DNA from: Betaproteobacteria bacterium
GTDB taxonomy: Bacteria; Pseudomonadota; Gammaproteobacteria; Burkholderiales; Rhodocyclaceae
NCBI GenBank assembly: GCA_020621405.1
Contig: JAHRYN010000006.1
Span: 94,868-158,867 of the forward strand
Direction of reading: 5' to 3'
Length of the DNA: 64,000 nt
Position numbers and translations under genes: made by a program. This document shows, in pieces, positions 740-7,659 of this stretch. The notes under the pieces were generated by a model, which was not told the DNA's origin, did not search any database, and worked only from the letters and a program-made list of their open reading frames with translations. Position 1 is the first letter of the stretch. Each line of letters begins with the position of its first letter.

Positions 740-3700
740 TTGATCAGACTGGCAACGGCATGCCGCATCGTTCTGCTGATGTTGCTCACCGGCCTCGCCG
801 GCAGTGCATTTGCGGCAGACGCGCATGCGGGGCCGTTGCCCCGGAAGATCACGGTTGTCCTCGACGACAACTTTCCGCCCTACACCCTGCGCGATGCGTC
901 CGGACAACTGCAGGGCCTGGTCAGGGATCGCTGGCGGCAGTGGCAGGAACAGACCGGCATCGAGGTCGAACTGCGCGGCATGGAGTGGGCACAGGCCCAG
1001 CAGGTCATGCGCGACGGGGGCGCCGACGTGATCGACACCATTTCGCGCACACCGGCGCGCGAGCCGCTTTACGACTTTTCCGCGCCCTATGCCGACCTCG
1101 ACGTCATGCTGTACTTCCGCACCGAGCTGTCGGGCATCGTCGACGCCGCATCGAGCCGCAACTTCATCGTCGGCGTCAAGGACGGCGACCGCTGCGTCGA
1201 ACAGCTGGCCGGGGCAGGATCGACCAACCTCGCACGTTTCCCGACCTACGCGCTGCTGGTAGCGGCAGCGGCGCACAGGGAGGTCGACGTTTTCTGCATG
1301 AACCAGCGGCCGGCGGAATACTTTCTCGCGAAAGCAGGCATCCGCCAAGCATTCCGCCATACCCAAACGATGTACACCAGTCAGTTCCACTGGGCCGTCA
1401 GAAAGGGCGATGCGCCGCTGTTGCGCATCATCAGCGACGGATTCGCACGCATCCCGCCTGAAGCCAGCCGCGAGCTGGAGGAAAAATGGTTCGGCTCCGC
1501 GGTCGAGGGCGTGTTGGCGCCCTATCTGCGCTACGGCGGCTACGGACTGCTCGCCTTGCTGGCGACCCTGCTCGTCATGGCTGCCTGGATCTATTCGATG
1601 CGAACCGCGGTCCGGCACAAGACCGCTGCGCTGGAAGAGGAGCGCGCACGTTTCAAGACCTTGTTCCAGACCTTGCCCGATCCGGCATGGCTCAAGAACC
1701 CGGATGGCGTGGTACTGGCCTGCAACGCGGCCTACGAGCACCTGCTCGGCAAGCCCGAGAGCGCGCTCATCGGCCAGCGGGATGAAGCGCTCATGGAACG
1801 GCAGCTGGCCGATGGCTTTCGGGAAAGCGACCGGCAGGCCATGGCCGCCGATGCGCCAATACGCTACGAGGAATGGCTGGACCTGCCGACGCTCGAACAT
1901 CCGCGTCTGTTCCAGACAACCAAGACGAGAATGCATGACGCCGCCGGGCACCTGCTCGGCATACTCGGCGTGGCACGCGACATCACCGACCTGCACTCGA
2001 TGCAGACCGCGCTCGGAGAGCGCATCCGGGAGCAGAAATGTCTGTATGCGATATTCCGTGCCAGCGACGACCTGCACCGGCCGCTGCCCGACATGCTGCA
2101 GGAGGTGACGTCACTTCTGCCCTCAGGCTGGCGCCATCCGCAGATCGCGGCGGCCTGCATCGACTGGTCGGGACAGCACTACGCCACGGCAGACCTGGAC
2201 AGCGCGGTCATCCGCCTGAGCACCGATATCCGGATCGGGCCGCGGACGCTGGGACATATCACCGTCGCCTATCTGCAGCCGCTGCCCGACCACAATGGCG
2301 GCGATCCCTTCGTCGACGAGGAACGCGATCTGATCGAAGCGGTGGCCGAGCGGCTGGCCAGCGTGCATCAGCGCCGGGTGGCCGAAGATCACCTGAGCGA
2401 AAGCGAGGAGCGTTTCCGCAAGCTGTTCGAGGACACCCGTCAGGCCATCACGCTGGTCGAGGACGGCCGCTTCGTCGCCGCCAACAAGGCGTCGCTGGCC
2501 ATGCTGCGCATCGATAGCGCCGGGGAGTTCCTCGGACGCACGCCGATCGACATTTCGCCGGTACAGCAACCCGATGGCCGGCTGTCGTCGGAAAAGGTGT
2601 TGGAGGTCATCCGCATCGCGCTGGAAAAGGGGTCGCACGAATTCGAGTGGGAGCACATCCGCGCCGATGGCGAACACTTCATCGCCCACGTGCTGCTGAC
2701 TGCAATACGCCAGGGCAGCAAGAACCTGCTGCATGTCGTCTGGAACGACATCAGCGAACAGAAAAGGGCCGCAACCGAGCTGGACGCATACCGCCAGGAA
2801 CTCGAGCAGCGTGTTGCGGCACGAACGGCGGAACTGCTGGCCATCAACGAAGAGCAGCAGGCGCTGTTCGACGCGGCAACCCTGGGCATCGTGCTGCTCA
2901 AGGACCGCACCGCGAGCCGCTGCAACCGGCGCATGCACGAAATGCTCGGTTGGCCGGACGGCGAACTGACGGGCCGGTCGACACGGGCCTGGTACGTCGA
3001 TGACGCTGCCTTCAATGAAGTCTTCGACAAGGCCTACGAGGACATCCGGCAGGGCCTGACACATCATCGCGAACAGATGATGGTGCGGCGCGACGGCACC
3101 CGACTCTGGACGCGCATGACCGGTCGAGCGGTCGCGCCGGGCGATCCGGGCCGGGGCTCGGTATGGATCATCGACGACATCACGGCCGAGCGTGCCGCAG
3201 CCGAAGCGGTGCGTCTGGCCAACGAAGAACAGCAGGCGATCTTCGATGCCGCGACGGTCGGCATCGCGCTGACACGCGACCGTACGATCCAGCGCTGCAA
3301 CCGCACGATGGAACGGATGTTCGGCTACGGCGCCGACGAAATGCGGGGGCTGAACATGCGCGCGGTGTACCCGGACGACACGACGTTCTCCGAAATCGAC
3401 CAGCGGATCGCGGCCGATCTGGCACAGAAGGGGGCCTATCGGGAAGAACATGAAATGCTGCGCAAGGACGGCAGCCGCTTCTGGTGCCGCATGATGGTGC
3501 TGGCGATCGACCACAAGGATATGGGCAAGGGATTTGCCGGCACCTTCGAGGACATCACCGCCGAGCGGGCGGCCAACGCGGAGCTGGCGCAGACACGCCT
3601 GCTGGCGGAAGCCGGCGCCAGGGCGAAAAGCGACTTCCTGGCCAATATGAGCCACGAAATCCGGACGCCGATGAACGCGGTCATCGGCCTGACCCACCTT

Positions 3701-5836
3701 GCACTGAAGACCGGGCCGACAGCGCGACAGCGCGACTATTTGCTGAAGATCCAGCGATCGGGTCAGCATCTGCTGGGCATCATCAACGACATTCTCGATT
3801 TTTCGAAGATCGACGCCGGCAAGATGGCGGTCGAGCACGTCGAATTCGAACTGGAGCGGATACTCGACAATGTCGCCGGACTGGTCGCGGAAAAGGCTTC
3901 GGACAAGGGGCTGGAGCTGATCGTCGAGGTCGAGGACGACGTGCCCAACGATCTGATCGGGGACCCGCTGCGCATCAGTCAGGTATTGATCAACTACACC
4001 AACAACGCCGTGAAATTCACCACCCGCGGCGAAATCGGCATACATGTGCGCGTTGCCGAACGGATGGCGGACGACGTGCAGCTGCATTTCTCGGTACGCG
4101 ACACCGGCATCGGCATCGACGAAGCGCAGCGTCAGACGCTGTTCCAGAGTTTCCAGCAGGCCGATACCTCGACCACACGCCGCTATGGCGGGACCGGGCT
4201 GGGCCTGGTCATCGCCAAGCGACTGGCCGAACTGATGGGTGGCGAGGTCGGTGTCGACAGCACGCCCGGCCAGGGGGCAACCTTCTGGTTCACCGCGCGC
4301 ATGGGCCGGGGCCGCGACACGCGCGAACGCTTTCTGCCCAAGCCCGATCTGCGCGCACGCCGGATGCTGGTCGTCGACGACAACGAGCACGCGCGCAACG
4401 CGCTCGGCGACATGCTGCGCAGCATGACCTTCGTGGTGGGCAGCGCCGGATCCGGCCAGGCAGCCCTGGACGAGCTGGCGCGTGCCGCGTCGGCCGGCGA
4501 ACCGTACGAAATCGTGTTTCTCGACTGGCAGATGCCCGGGATGGATGGCCTGGCCACTGCCCGGAAAATCAGCGAACTGCAGCTGCACACACCTCCCGTC
4601 GTACTGATGATCACCGCATACGGCCGGGACGAGCTGACGAGCGCCGCCGCACAGGCCGGAATCGAGGAAGTCCTGACCAAGCCGGTAAACCCGTCGCTGT
4701 TGTTCGACACCGTGATGCGGGTGTTCGGCGCTGCAGCCGACCTGCCGCAACGCACGCAACCGGACAGAACAGCCCCTGCGCCCGACATCACCGCCATCGC
4801 CGGAGCACGGATCCTGCTGGTCGAAGACAACGATCTGAACCAGGAGGTGGCAACCGAACTGCTGCACGAAGCCGGACTTCTGGTCGATCTGGCGCCCGAT
4901 GGCTCGGTTGCGCTGGAGAAGGTCCAGCACAACAGCTACGACATCGTGCTGATGGACATGCAGATGCCGGTGATGGACGGACTCGCTGCCACACGCGAAA
5001 TCCGCCGGCTTCCCGGCCAGAGGGATCTGCCCATCGTGGCGATGACCGCCAATGCCATGGCAGGTGACCGCGAGCGCTGCATCGACGCGGGCATGAACGA
5101 CCACATCGCCAAACCGATCGACCCGGTGAATCTGATGGCCAAGTTGCTGCAGTGGATCAGGCCGCAGCATCTGAAGGCGCGCAACGGCAGCGGCGGAACC
5201 AGGGTCGGGCGCCCGGCGCCATCGGCCAGCATCCTGGAAGGCATCCCCGGACTGGACGTCGCCACTGGTCTGCGCCAGTCGATGGGGCGCGATGCGCTCT
5301 ACCTGTCGCTGCTGTCCAGATTCGTCTCCGGGCAGGCGGATGCACCGTCACACATCGCCCGGCTGATTGGCGAATCGGACTGGCCGTCCGCGGAACTGGT
5401 CGCACATACGCTCAAGGGCGTCGCCGCCCAGATCGGCGCCGACGGCATTCGCATCATTGCCGAGCGGCTCGAACACGCGATCCGTCACCGCGAACCGGCA
5501 CTGGCGCTGGATGAGATTCAGGCCGACCTCGCGGTCTCGTTGCCGGCACTGATCGCATCGATCAGAAGCCGCCTCCAGCCGCCTGACGCCACACCTGAGG
5601 CCGCGGCAGTCGATCAGGCGCAGTTGCGCCGGATCTGCGCGGCGCTGGCCGACAGGCTTAAAGACGACGATTTTTCCAGCCGGCAACTGCTGGATGCCAA
5701 TGAGGCAATGTTGAGGATGGGATTGGGAGAACACTTCCCGCACATCGCCGAGGCCATTCGTGACTGCGATTTCGGTACCGCGCTCGAACGGCTCCGCGCG
5801 GCGCTGCCGTCGGGTTTGCCCGAAACGCCGCCCTGA
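740..5836 (+). CDS. hybrid histidine kinase with periplasmic binding-protein sensor domain
   Basis: This 1,698-residue inner-membrane phosphorelay kinase has the following order: signal peptide (about 1-28), type 3 solute-binding domain (about 35-255, periplasmic), one membrane helix (about 270-290), PAS (300-425), a GAF-like region (430-540), three further PAS domains (about 555-945), HisKA with the SHEIRTP box (H972), HATPase, receiver 1 (D1262), receiver 2 (D1406) and an HPt domain (H1556). The architecture is that of BvgS/EvgS-like kinases with an extra receiver: ligand binding outside would drive a His-Asp-His relay inside. The start is TTG at 740, with GGGAG just upstream and the signal peptide beginning there. 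No response regulator gene adjoins it, so the target lies elsewhere. All phosphoacceptor residues are present. Confidence 0.93.
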   Translation: MIRLATACRIVLLMLLTGLAGSAFAADAHAGPLPRKITVVLDDNFPPYTLRDASGQLQGLVRDRWRQWQEQTGIEVELRGMEWAQAQQVMRDGGADVIDTISRTPAREPLYDFSAPYADLDVMLYFRTELSGIVDAASSRNFIVGVKDGDRCVEQLAGAGSTNLARFPTYALLVAAAAHREVDVFCMNQRPAEYFLAKAGIRQAFRHTQTMYTSQFHWAVRKGDAPLLRIISDGFARIPPEASRELEEKWFGSAVEGVLAPYLRYGGYGLLALLATLLVMAAWIYSMRTAVRHKTAALEEERARFKTLFQTLPDPAWLKNPDGVVLACNAAYEHLLGKPESALIGQRDEALMERQLADGFRESDRQAMAADAPIRYEEWLDLPTLEHPRLFQTTKTRMHDAAGHLLGILGVARDITDLHSMQTALGERIREQKCLYAIFRASDDLHRPLPDMLQEVTSLLPSGWRHPQIAAACIDWSGQHYATADLDSAVIRLSTDIRIGPRTLGHITVAYLQPLPDHNGGDPFVDEERDLIEAVAERLASVHQRRVAEDHLSESEERFRKLFEDTRQAITLVEDGRFVAANKASLAMLRIDSAGEFLGRTPIDISPVQQPDGRLSSEKVLEVIRIALEKGSHEFEWEHIRADGEHFIAHVLLTAIRQGSKNLLHVVWNDISEQKRAATELDAYRQELEQRVAARTAELLAINEEQQALFDAATLGIVLLKDRTASRCNRRMHEMLGWPDGELTGRSTRAWYVDDAAFNEVFDKAYEDIRQGLTHHREQMMVRRDGTRLWTRMTGRAVAPGDPGRGSVWIIDDITAERAAAEAVRLANEEQQAIFDAATVGIALTRDRTIQRCNRTMERMFGYGADEMRGLNMRAVYPDDTTFSEIDQRIAADLAQKGAYREEHEMLRKDGSRFWCRMMVLAIDHKDMGKGFAGTFEDITAERAANAELAQTRLLAEAGARAKSDFLANMSHEIRTPMNAVIGLTHLALKTGPTARQRDYLLKIQRSGQHLLGIINDILDFSKIDAGKMAVEHVEFELERILDNVAGLVAEKASDKGLELIVEVEDDVPNDLIGDPLRISQVLINYTNNAVKFTTRGEIGIHVRVAERMADDVQLHFSVRDTGIGIDEAQRQTLFQSFQQADTSTTRRYGGTGLGLVIAKRLAELMGGEVGVDSTPGQGATFWFTARMGRGRDTRERFLPKPDLRARRMLVVDDNEHARNALGDMLRSMTFVVGSAGSGQAALDELARAASAGEPYEIVFLDWQMPGMDGLATARKISELQLHTPPVVLMITAYGRDELTSAAAQAGIEEVLTKPVNPSLLFDTVMRVFGAAADLPQRTQPDRTAPAPDITAIAGARILLVEDNDLNQEVATELLHEAGLLVDLAPDGSVALEKVQHNSYDIVLMDMQMPVMDGLAATREIRRLPGQRDLPIVAMTANAMAGDRERCIDAGMNDHIAKPIDPVNLMAKLLQWIRPQHLKARNGSGGTRVGRPAPSASILEGIPGLDVATGLRQSMGRDALYLSLLSRFVSGQADAPSHIARLIGESDWPSAELVAHTLKGVAAQIGADGIRIIAERLEHAIRHREPALALDEIQADLAVSLPALIASIRSRLQPPDATPEAAAVDQAQLRRICAALADRLKDDDFSSRQLLDANEAMLRMGLGEHFPHIAEAIRDCDFGTALERLRAALPSGLPETPP

Positions 5837-5875
5837 TCCGGGCCGTCCGCACCCACACGCCGCGAATGACGTGCA

Positions 5876-5892
5876 AGTGCGCACGGCGCACT
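5876..5892 (+). other. hairpin just upstream of tRNA-Leu
   Basis: AGTGCGC-ACG-GCGCACT is a perfect 7-bp stem with a 3-nt loop, 40 bp after the kinase stop. It has no following T-run, so it is at best a weak terminator. It directly abuts the -10-like TAAAAT (5895-5900) of the tRNA gene and occupies the promoter spacer. Confidence 0.4.
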
Positions 5893-5894
5893 GT

Positions 5895-5900
5895 TAAAAT
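5895..5900 (+). promoter_or_regulatory. -10 element of tRNA-Leu promoter
   Basis: TAAAAT ends 9 nt before the mature tRNA 5' end, the right place for a -10 box giving a short leader. The best -35 candidate (GTGCAA, 5871-5876) is poor. Confidence 0.4.
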
Positions 5901-5909
5901 GCGCCCGCT

Positions 5910-6206
5910 GCCCGGGTGGTGAAATTGGTAGACACAAGGGACTTAAAGATTGAGCACCGGGCTGCGAAAGTACCCGCGTGAATCCCCTCAAATTCGGCGA
6001 ACCCCCTGGCCACGGGCCGAGGCAACGCCGAGCCAAGCCCGGCGACGGGAAGGTGTAGAGACTAGACGGGGGGCACCTACAGCGCGTCGCGCCAGGGTGA
6101 AGGCATAGTCCAGCGCACGAACGGCGCAAGCCGGCGGTGAAAACCGTGGTGTGACGAAAATCCCTCGGCGCAAGCTGTACGGGTTCGACCCCCGTCCCGG
6201 GCACCA
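5910..6206 (+). tRNA. tRNA-Leu(UAA), interrupted by a group I intron
   Basis: The 5' exon is 5910-5944 and the 3' exon 6157-6206; joined they make an 85-nt leucine tRNA with encoded CCA. Acceptor strands GCCCGGG (5910-5916) and CCCGGGC (6196-6202) pair perfectly. The anticodon arm rebuilds as AGGGA-CTTAAAA-TCCCT with anticodon TAA, followed by the long variable arm typical of class II tRNAs. The intron lies between U34 and A35, inside the anticodon, the same site as in cyanobacterial and plastid tRNA-Leu(UAA) genes. Without splicing the tRNA could not work, so the intron must be active if this is the only UAA-leucine tRNA. Confidence 0.96.
5945..6156 (+). ncRNA. group I self-splicing intron (IC3-like) in tRNA-Leu(UAA)
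   Basis: The 212-nt intron has no ORF. The 5' exon ends in U34, which can form the P1 G.U pair with the guide GAG about 7 nt into the intron, and the last intron base is G6156. Core helices are visible: P3 CCCC (5984-5987) with the G-run after 6068; P4 CGGCG (5995-5999)/CGCCG (6026-6030); P6 CCCG-GCGA-CGGG (6038-6049); P7 GACTA (6060-6064)/TAGTC (6106-6110), the guanosine-binding helix; P8 CACC (6074-6077)/GGTG (6096-6099). 3' hairpins carry GCAA (6123-6132) and GAAA (6135-6146) tetraloops. The strings GGCAACGCCGAGCCAAGC and GTAGAGACTAGAC closely resemble, from memory, the Azoarcus tRNA-Ile ribozyme. Confidence 0.95.
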
Positions 6207-6413
6207 GATCAGAAGAAGTCCTCGAAACGGACCTGCCTGCGAGTCGCGCCCACTCCAAGTCCGGTGGATGCCGGAATTCGCGGGTGCTGCGGGAAACGAC
6301 GGCGCACGGGCGACATCCGTCGGTCCTGCAGATCGTCGCTCACCGCTGGAATCGTATCCAGACCGCGCCGTCGGCAATTGCCCCGAACCGGCACCATCTC
6401 CACCGCATCTGAT

Positions 6414-7526
6414 TCACTTTACTTTGACGTAGCGCCCTTGGCGTATTTCCGTGAAATACACCTGTCGCGTCGTGTCACCGTTGGCGTCAAAGGCAATCTG
6501 CTGCTGCAGGCCCTGATACGGGCCATTACGAAGCATGGAGGCCTTCATAGTTTCACCCGGACGCCGGCCGCTGAGCGCCTTCAGCACGACCGTCGCGGCA
6601 TCGTAGGCGGATACGGAGCTGTAGCCGGGAGCACGCTGAAAATGTTTGAAATAGGCCTCGTCGAACTCGGAAAAACGGGCCGAGGTGTCATCCCGGTCAA
6701 AATTCTGGGCGATCAGCAGCCCCTCGACCACCGATCCGCCAAGATCGACCAAGTGCTCGGTCGCGGCCCACTCGGCAGCTCCGATCGGCAGTGCCGGCGC
6801 CTGCTTGCGGGCTTCCTGGGCCAGACGCGCCACGTCAAGGGCACCGGAAATGAAGAACAGGCTGTCGGGTCCGTCAGCCAGCATGGCTCTTATCACAGGT
6901 GCGAAATCGCGGTCCGGTACGGATTCGTACGGCACCGTCGACACCACCCCGGCACCCATCGACTCAGTGGCACTCCGGAACTCCGCCAGCCAGGATTCCG
7001 TGAAATTCCGGTTGCGCAGGTCATAGGCGACGGCAAATTTCCGCTGTCCTCTGTCGACCATGACCTTGGCGTAGTCCCGTGCGTTGTCGCGCGTTGTCCG
7101 GTTGATCCGGAACAGATTGTCGTCCTTGCCGTAGAAGGTCATGGACGTGATGGTCGGGCTGACCTGCAGGATCCCGGCTGCACCGGTGACCGGCAGCGTG
7201 GCCTCCGCCATGGAACTGGTAAACGGGCCGATGATCGCGGACACCCCGGCCGCCACCAGATCACGGGCGGCCCGGGCGGCCGTTTCCGGGTTCTGGGCAT
7301 CGTCACGCGCAACCACTTCGACAATGCGCCCATCCAGGCCGCCGGCCCGGTTGAACTGTTCAACGGCCAGCGTAACGCCGCGCAACCCTGCCTGACCATT
7401 GTCCGAATTGGAGTCGGTCAGGCCGCCGATGAATCCTATGCGCACCGGTTCGTCGTTTCCGCACGCAACCAGCAGGCAACAGACCAAGCAGAGGAAAATC
7501 CTCTTGTGAGGCGTTGTTACGTCCAT
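6414..7526 (-). CDS. branched-chain amino acid-type substrate-binding lipoprotein
   Basis: A 370-residue periplasmic binding protein of the LivJ/Peripla_BP_6 family. The signal peptide ends in a lipobox (L-V-A-C, Cys22), so it is anchored to the membrane. The mature N-terminus (V-R-I-G-F-I-G-G-L-T-D-S) is the family's first strand and ligand loop, and the two-lobed Rossmann-like pattern continues to the end. No ABC permease or ATPase gene is near, so it may deliver ligand to a distant transporter or act as a sensor subunit. It is transcribed divergently from the diguanylate cyclase next to it, which suggests a shared signal. Start: ATG 7526; a TTG two codons upstream is possible. Neither has a clear ribosome site. 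Confidence 0.85.
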   Translation of the reverse strand: MDVTTPHKRIFLCLVCCLLVACGNDEPVRIGFIGGLTDSNSDNGQAGLRGVTLAVEQFNRAGGLDGRIVEVVARDDAQNPETAARAARDLVAAGVSAIIGPFTSSMAEATLPVTGAAGILQVSPTITSMTFYGKDDNLFRINRTTRDNARDYAKVMVDRGQRKFAVAYDLRNRNFTESWLAEFRSATESMGAGVVSTVPYESVPDRDFAPVIRAMLADGPDSLFFISGALDVARLAQEARKQAPALPIGAAEWAATEHLVDLGGSVVEGLLIAQNFDRDDTSARFSEFDEAYFKHFQRAPGYSSVSAYDAATVVLKALSGRRPGETMKASMLRNGPYQGLQQQIAFDANGDTTRQVYFTEIRQGRYVKVK

Positions 7527-7659
7527 ATCCAATTTAACAATGCGAGCAGACGCTTGATGAGATCATTTTTTCAGTAAACGGCATGAACCCACATCAAATA
7601 AGTACAACAAGGCGATGTGGAGTGTGAGCTTCGCGTCGAATCAATAAAACGTCCAGTAC

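Follow-up and report, generated by a model that had tools for sequence, protein, structure and literature searches.

The closest described relatives of the intron reported here occur in the tRNA-Leu(UAA) of cyanobacteria and plastids, in the tRNA-Ile(CAU) of Azoarcus, and in the tRNA-Leu(UAA) of proteobacteria, where Vepritskiy and colleagues reportedly described, in J Bacteriol in 2002, a group I intron in a Pseudomonas isolate. As hosts of tRNA introns, reviews name, in their accessible text, cyanobacteria together with a small number of alpha- and betaproteobacteria (PMC4033280). The group I intron of Azoarcus tRNA-Ile(CAU) is structurally solved (accessible text of PMC3984707). In the available part of its description, tRNAscan-SE 2.0 is said to be not designed for detecting such introns, and Acidovorax and Burkholderia are mentioned as having introns in tRNA-Ile2 (PMC8450103).

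The window, that is, the whole stretch of 64,000 nt of betaproteobacterial DNA analyzed here, contains a tRNA-Leu(UAA) gene that is the sole one found in its genome. Our reading, given with high confidence, is that this gene is split by a predicted self-splicing intron and was most likely imported from another betaproteobacterium, replacing the native gene. With introns allowed, ARAGORN finds exactly one tRNA between 5701 and 6400, a tRNA-Leu(taa) at 5910–6206 with a 212-nt intron (the gene and all intron elements given below are on the plus strand). The 5′ exon (5910–5944) ends in C32, U33, and U34; the group I intron (5945–6156; Rfam, ARAGORN, covariation, and ORF scan) ends in a terminal G at 6156; the 3′ exon (6157–6206) begins with A35 and A36 and encodes the CCA end. 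The intron splits the anticodon between U34 and A35 (in the DNA, gactt–intron–aaaat), and the mature tRNA is a full cloverleaf. A split of 212 nt at this site had been proposed in an earlier note, written from the letters of the sequence, and is correct to the base. The gene is missed by default ARAGORN (introns off) and, given also the design of tRNAscan-SE 2.0, some tRNA inventories may wrongly lack tRNA-Leu(UAA).

The search with the Rfam group I model suggested in the earlier note gave a match at 5934–6113 with E 8.3e-7, and no other part of the 3.8 Mb genome matches RF00028 (Intron_gpI) at E 0.001; the score of this match, 33.7 bits, stays under the gathering score of 50, which is a curation threshold and not a structural feature. 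The Ser intron of a congener (37.0) and a BH72-like Ile intron (49.1) also score below it. As the note had said, no ORF lies wholly within the intron (the longest plus-strand frame has 53 codons), and with no ORF of its own the 212-nt intron encodes no homing endonuclease. One minus-strand frame runs stop-free across it and is read as chance in GC-rich DNA. Consensus scans of 5820–6420 found neither a sigma-70-type promoter nor an intrinsic terminator. The left neighbor (740–5836, plus strand) is a hybrid sensor histidine kinase (Pfam; in NCBIfam the equivalog cut-offs are not reached) and the right neighbor (6414–7532, minus strand) a periplasmic ligand-binding protein (Pfam).

The internal guide sequence UUGAG lies at 5950–5954. 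Its GAG pairs with C32-U33-U34 to form P1, with a U·G pair at the splice site, and its UU can pair with A35-A36 (P10). P2 is a hairpin with a GAAA cap (5955–5980), paired in 687 of 819 cells over the 82 Leu introns aligned. The 5′ strand of P3 (5984–5989) pairs with 6068–6073 in 491/492 cells and that of P7 (6060–6064) with 6106–6110 in 408/410 cells. Between these strands the covariation alignment places P4-P5-P5a (5994–6031), P6-P6a with a GCGA tetraloop (6032–6054), and P8-P8a (6074–6099), and after them P9 (6114–6153) with the hairpins P9a (GCAA, 6122–6133) and P9b (GAAA, 6135–6146), whose tetraloops are read directly in the sequence. The P3, P4, P6, P7, and P8 helices, the two P9-side tetraloop hairpins, and the terminal G listed in the earlier note are thus all present.

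Thirteen helices were named in total (P2, P3, P4, P5, P5a, P6, P6a, P7, P8, P8a, P9, P9a, and P9b), and in the window intron their 61 pairs are all standard. The alignment holds 82 tRNA-Leu introns (8 from the family, 71 named, and 3 from plasmids, near-copies removed), 71 of which were found by a pattern fixing some letters of P1, P3, P6, and P7. Across these introns, 92% of the cells (4506 of 4921) are paired, against about 70% when the 3′ letters are shuffled and 33–43% in slid controls, the latter a comparison that tilts toward the proposed structure because the helices were drawn on the window intron itself. Cells changed on both sides number 1009 (290–340 in three shuffles). Counting instead the pairs in which any such change occurs (50/61, with 43–47 in shuffled and 32–35 in slid controls) does not discriminate from the shuffles. 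P3 and P7 cross as a pseudoknot and have 130 and 97 two-sided-change cells, respectively; pairing is weakest in P5a (73%), P8a (82%), P9a (83%), and P2 and P9 (84% each). The structure rests on this covariation, since the folding energy is ordinary (z −0.70, with 45 of 200 shuffles folding equally well) and the nested minimum-energy fold is without P7. With the covarying P3/P7 pseudoknot, the U·G pair of P1 at the 5′ splice site, and the 3′-terminal G, the window intron has the sequence features of a genuine group I intron and is very probably functional.

Another intact tRNA-Leu(UAA) gene, which for the earlier note would have spoken against its reading, was looked for in the genome and none was found. 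The 36 tRNA matches that pass the Rfam cut-off are read as other isotypes (ARAGORN on the loci), and a pattern for the intact gene, with up to two mismatches, occurs nowhere in the window genome and once in each of 12 congeners, in 11 of which ARAGORN confirms an intronless tRNA-Leu(UAA). The assembly is in 12 contigs and expected tRNAs (e.g., Asn, Glu, and Ile(GAU)) are absent from the 36, so that a gap might hide another tRNA-Leu(UAA).

In the congeners, the upstream DNA of the intronless gene is homologous in nine of the 10 loci compared (G002 and G003 were left out), the tenth (G007) matching weakly; at one of them, L040, the gene upstream is selD. The window genome has a selD, 60% identical to that of L040, and ARAGORN finds no tRNA in the surrounding 4059-base locus. 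The right neighbor of the split gene has a close ortholog (81%) in only one of the 12 congeners, G006, where ARAGORN finds no adjoining tRNA and the following gene is read as encoding a sulfate-binding-type protein. The window exons are 95.4% identical to those of L117 and 92.9% to those of L116 and L101, which are intron-bearing genes of other genera, and 84.7–89.4% identical to the genes of 10 congeners. A location unlike that in the congeners, together with exons like those of intron-bearing genes in other genera, points to import and loss of the native gene: in the simplest reading, the whole gene probably came from another betaproteobacterium, and the native intronless gene beside selD was lost. 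With its selD only 60% identical to that of L040, the species may be an early branch in which tRNA-Leu always lay elsewhere, and the location may then be an old difference within the genus.

The earlier note had also proposed a tree of the catalytic core. In a small tree of 51 rows, the window intron falls in a clade of seven Leu introns (support 100/97), with the family loci L116, L117, L101, and L090 as nearest kin, followed, depending on the tree used, by rows of Polaromonas, Comamonadaceae, or Rhodoferax; the deep branches are poorly resolved. Eight of the 395 genomes of the family, in seven genera, are read with Leu(UAA) introns, which would agree with an intron gene old in the lineage, the intronless congeners having lost the intron or acquired other genes; group I introns are regarded as easily lost. 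Such vertical inheritance is nonetheless unlikely: the window gene is located differently from that of the congeners, Comamonadaceae introns (Rhodoferax, Polaromonas) lie within the window clade, and the Leu introns of the family occupy three places in the tree (the window clade, L107, and L088/L111). 

In the split gene, splicing would follow the established steps of group I introns, from which its occurrence in vivo is also deduced. In the precursor, the GAG of the intron would pair with C32-U33-U34, so that a U·G pair marks the 5′ splice site; P7, the guanosine-binding helix of group I introns, would supply the guanosine that attacks after U34; and the freed U34, with A35-A36 aligned on the UU of the guide, would attack after the terminal G6156, joining the U34-A35-A36 anticodon. 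UUA is rare, with one use among the 3726 codons of five neighboring ORFs, so weak splicing might be tolerated and the intron could have decayed into a silent one; that splicing has been lost is very unlikely, however, with every named pair standard, P1, P10, and the terminal G in place, and a full cloverleaf for the mature form of the only gene found for UUA.

In the core, the window intron is closer to the Azoarcus-type tRNA-Ile introns (median identity 0.70, maximum 0.75, nine rows) than to the cyanobacterial tRNA-Leu introns (median 0.63, maximum 0.67, eight rows), in agreement with the earlier description of an Azoarcus-like core at the cyanobacterial position, and closest to the other named Leu introns (median 0.73, maximum 0.88). 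Its resemblance to the Azoarcus core would make subgroup IC3 a candidate assignment. Reverse splicing as RNA into tRNA-Leu from an Azoarcus-type tRNA-Ile(CAU) of the same family, where introns in that tRNA make up most of the loci read (35 of 50) and are nearer in the core than the cyanobacterial Leu introns, is highly improbable, as the nearest kin are all Leu(UAA) introns, the Ile introns stand far off on the tree (path at least 1.39), and the exons also resemble other intron-bearing Leu genes. Movement of introns between tRNA genes, the wider idea of the note, is suggested by the larger set of introns described below, whereas a recent move from Ile to Leu is unsupported at this locus. A large tree (197 rows, thinned from 268 by removing near-copies; 121 columns) requires 33 host changes, is poorly resolved, and carries a long-branch warning; its Thr rows cluster no more than shuffled labels. 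The small tree requires six host changes, and neither the grouping of all Leu introns (p-AU 0.07), and with it a single origin of them all, nor that of Leu, Ser, and Thr introns (p-AU 0.23) is rejected. With trees so poorly resolved and constraints not rejected, we claim no number of host jumps.

In the family survey (395 genomes, with filters that lose weak matches), RF00028 matched 46 genomes, and the 50 matches listed were all read by ARAGORN and at the junction. The hosts are tRNA-Ile(CAU) in 35, tRNA-Leu(UAA) in eight (the window included), tRNA-Ser(UGA) in three, and tRNA-Thr(UGU) in two, the remaining two (L070, and L091 near a contig end) having no tRNA call. The insertion point is between U34 and N35 in every Leu, Ser, and Thr intron, and the Ile(CAU) introns follow CAU or split U33 from C34. 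Two genomes of the family carry introns identical to those of Niveibacterium sp. 24ML and an uncultured Sterolibacterium, in indirect support of the betaproteobacterial placement given in the note. ARAGORN names of Arg(acg), Ser(aga), and, at L104 and L115, Leu(taa) were set aside, the junction reading giving tRNA-Ile(CAU) in each. Several loci of the survey have features of their own. The match without a tRNA call at L070 (G310) is the best-scoring group I match of the survey. In genus g18, the Ile(CAU) introns, frequent there and seen at L104, L095, and further loci, lie at U33/C34, three bases upstream of the Azoarcus site, and combine a short P8 with long extensions on the 5′ side. Besides an intronless tRNA-Leu(UAA) and an intact tRNA-Ser(UGA), the congener G005 carries an additional, intron-bearing tRNA-Ser(UGA) (L033/L069) on a contig (G005:C22) with a Cas3-like gene; what reads as a tRNA-like 3′ fragment lies about 80 bases downstream.

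A pattern for compact Leu(UAA) introns, run over genome contigs, gave at least 120 stretches. All of the 80 loci listed are intron-bearing tRNAs, 77 of them Leu(taa) and three differing by the boundary that ARAGORN chose. By their titles, 64 of these 80 belong to Pseudomonadota, eight to Cyanobacteria, four to Acidobacteria, three to Eremiobacterota, and one to Clostridia, so that the earlier note's view of Leu(UAA) introns as unusual outside cyanobacteria finds no support. In a sample of the class, RF00028 matched 59/369 genomes and, of 70 loci read, 14 are Leu(UAA) and 37 lack an intron-bearing tRNA; in a sample across phyla, it matched 37/398 genomes and, of 37 loci, 14 are Leu(UAA) and seven lack an intron-bearing tRNA. 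A looser reading of both samples gives 30 Leu introns and one Arg intron after C32-U33-U34; other host readings in them are uncertain (e.g., His(AUG), Leu(AAG), and Ile(AAU)) and were left out.

The match between guide and host anticodon was compared over introns that follow C32-U33-U34. The guide was taken as the first GAG before C or T, or else the first GAG, and was thus located without P10. Rows with another junction, unclear viral rows, near-copies, one overlong row, and one without GAG were left out. Among 83 introns from searches that do not fix the guide (the RF00028 surveys, with class and phylum rows not thinned for near-copies, the plasmid blastn, and a core-only viral scan), 68 pair with both first bases of the 3′ exon of their own host; 2000 shuffles of the host labels, which ignore relatedness, average 48.5 and reach at most 56. 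Outside Leu, 14 of 15 pair with their own host (shuffles, mean 4.1, maximum 11); among the Leu introns, 54 of 68 pair at both bases and 14 do not. The RF00028 rows alone give 36/44 (mean 28.4, maximum 33), and the full set without the 71 pattern-found Leu rows gives 72/82 (mean 37.8, maximum 50). A first count of 143/153 (mean 103, maximum 114; outside Leu 25/27, mean 8.5, maximum 16) was rejected as inflated, because those 71 Leu rows came from a pattern containing TTGAGC. G·U pairs blur the hosts in these counts, Lys with Arg, and Leu guides also pair with Ser. The constancy of the GAG is partly a matter of definition, because the choice of loop split in viral tRNAs preferred C-U-U followed by a GAG guide. 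Judged from these sequences, P10 tends to track the host anticodon.

Related genes are carried by plasmids. A blastn search of the gene against plasmids matched 1317 records, 1264 of them with at least 80% of the gene covered and 1284 with a best identity of 60–80%; of 5426 complete E. coli genomes, 625 match the gene at E 1e-10. In the three records opened (L357, L358, and L359), plasmids of Klebsiella, Acinetobacter, and Aeromonas from clinical isolates, an intron-bearing tRNA-Leu(UAA)-like gene lies near aac(3)-II-type resistance genes. The guide of these three departs from the P10 rule of most relatives, and the missing annotation there means little, as the gene table lists no RNA genes. 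Further plasmid cases occur in Bradyrhizobium and Mycetohabitans.

In viral contigs, four pattern scans gave 239 loci that were read (30 more were left out), with at least 177 intron-bearing tRNAs called and 66 core hits without a tRNA. The counts are lower bounds, and those by host reflect the search patterns used: the clear readings comprise at least 82 Leu(UAA), at least nine Lys(UUU), at least nine Arg(UCU) after U34, at least five Thr(UGU), and at least three Ser(UGA). Other viral introns sit at other positions of the loop, and uncertain readings of the loop split (e.g., His(AUG), Leu(AAG), and Ile(AAU)) were left out. A PHROGs scan of ten proteins from seven intron-bearing contigs gave clear phage functions in four, namely RIIA in L252 and L271, a tape measure protein in L308, and a tail fiber J in L314; L317 had weak matches, and L452 and L286 none. 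The viral contig L261 has an intron in a tRNA with the anticodon UCA, which could read UGA, and its P10 bases match the anticodon. In the isolated Gordonia phage Daredevil (L363), a match to the group I core lies between annotated genes, near an integrase. A review of 2014 states, in its accessible text, that the phage introns then known were all in protein genes (PMC3984707), and the accessible parts of two further papers describe introns in phage protein genes and none in tRNA genes (PMC7824862, PMC7886860). Our literature search, in which subscription papers were mostly beyond reach, returned in the accessible text no report of group I introns in tRNA-Ser(UGA), tRNA-Thr(UGU), tRNA-Lys(UUU), or tRNA-Arg(UCU) of bacteria or phages, which is weak evidence of novelty.

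From this wider set we tentatively put forward, as a possibility that falls short of even chances, a mobile family of introns of about 200 nt, in which an unchanging GAG guide would direct the intron to tRNAs with C32-U33-U34 and two P10 bases would be re-tuned to the second and third anticodon bases of the host. Such a family would have occupied Leu(UAA), Ser(UGA), Thr(UGU), Lys(UUU), Arg(UCU), and further tRNAs, and phages and plasmids may spread it within complete tRNA genes. If true, the tRNA genes of phages and plasmids would be the missing vehicle of introns that have no endonuclease. The window locus, ordinary by itself, adds to a set large enough for testing the spread of ORF-less group I introns; the interest lies in the match of guide and anticodon across hosts and in the presence on phages and plasmids.

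In comparison with the known systems, the intron of cyanobacterial and plastid tRNA-Leu(UAA) shares with the window intron the tRNA and the site. The GAG guide is common to the window and to the eight cyanobacterial loci among the matches listed, the guide having been part of the search pattern. In the small tree, two of the three cyanobacterial rows split off at 100/99 and the third is loosely placed. The Azoarcus intron in tRNA-Ile(CAU) has the same core words, a similar length (205 nt in L081, which we take to be the Azoarcus BH72 intron), and GAAA loops in the P2 and P9 regions; unlike the window intron, it sits after the anticodon CAU, has the guide GUG instead of GAG, and is without the bases of P9a. 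Introns of the Azoarcus type reach at most 0.75 core identity (nine rows) and fall outside the window clade. The proteobacterial tRNA-Leu(UAA) introns, found among the matches listed in Pseudomonas, Stutzerimonas, Achromobacter, Polaromonas, and Niveibacterium, are like the window intron in gene, U34/A35 site, and compact form; in the loci compared here, only sequence details and the host differ. Introns of tRNA-Leu(UAA) are widespread in Pseudomonadota, and the window intron is an ordinary member of them.
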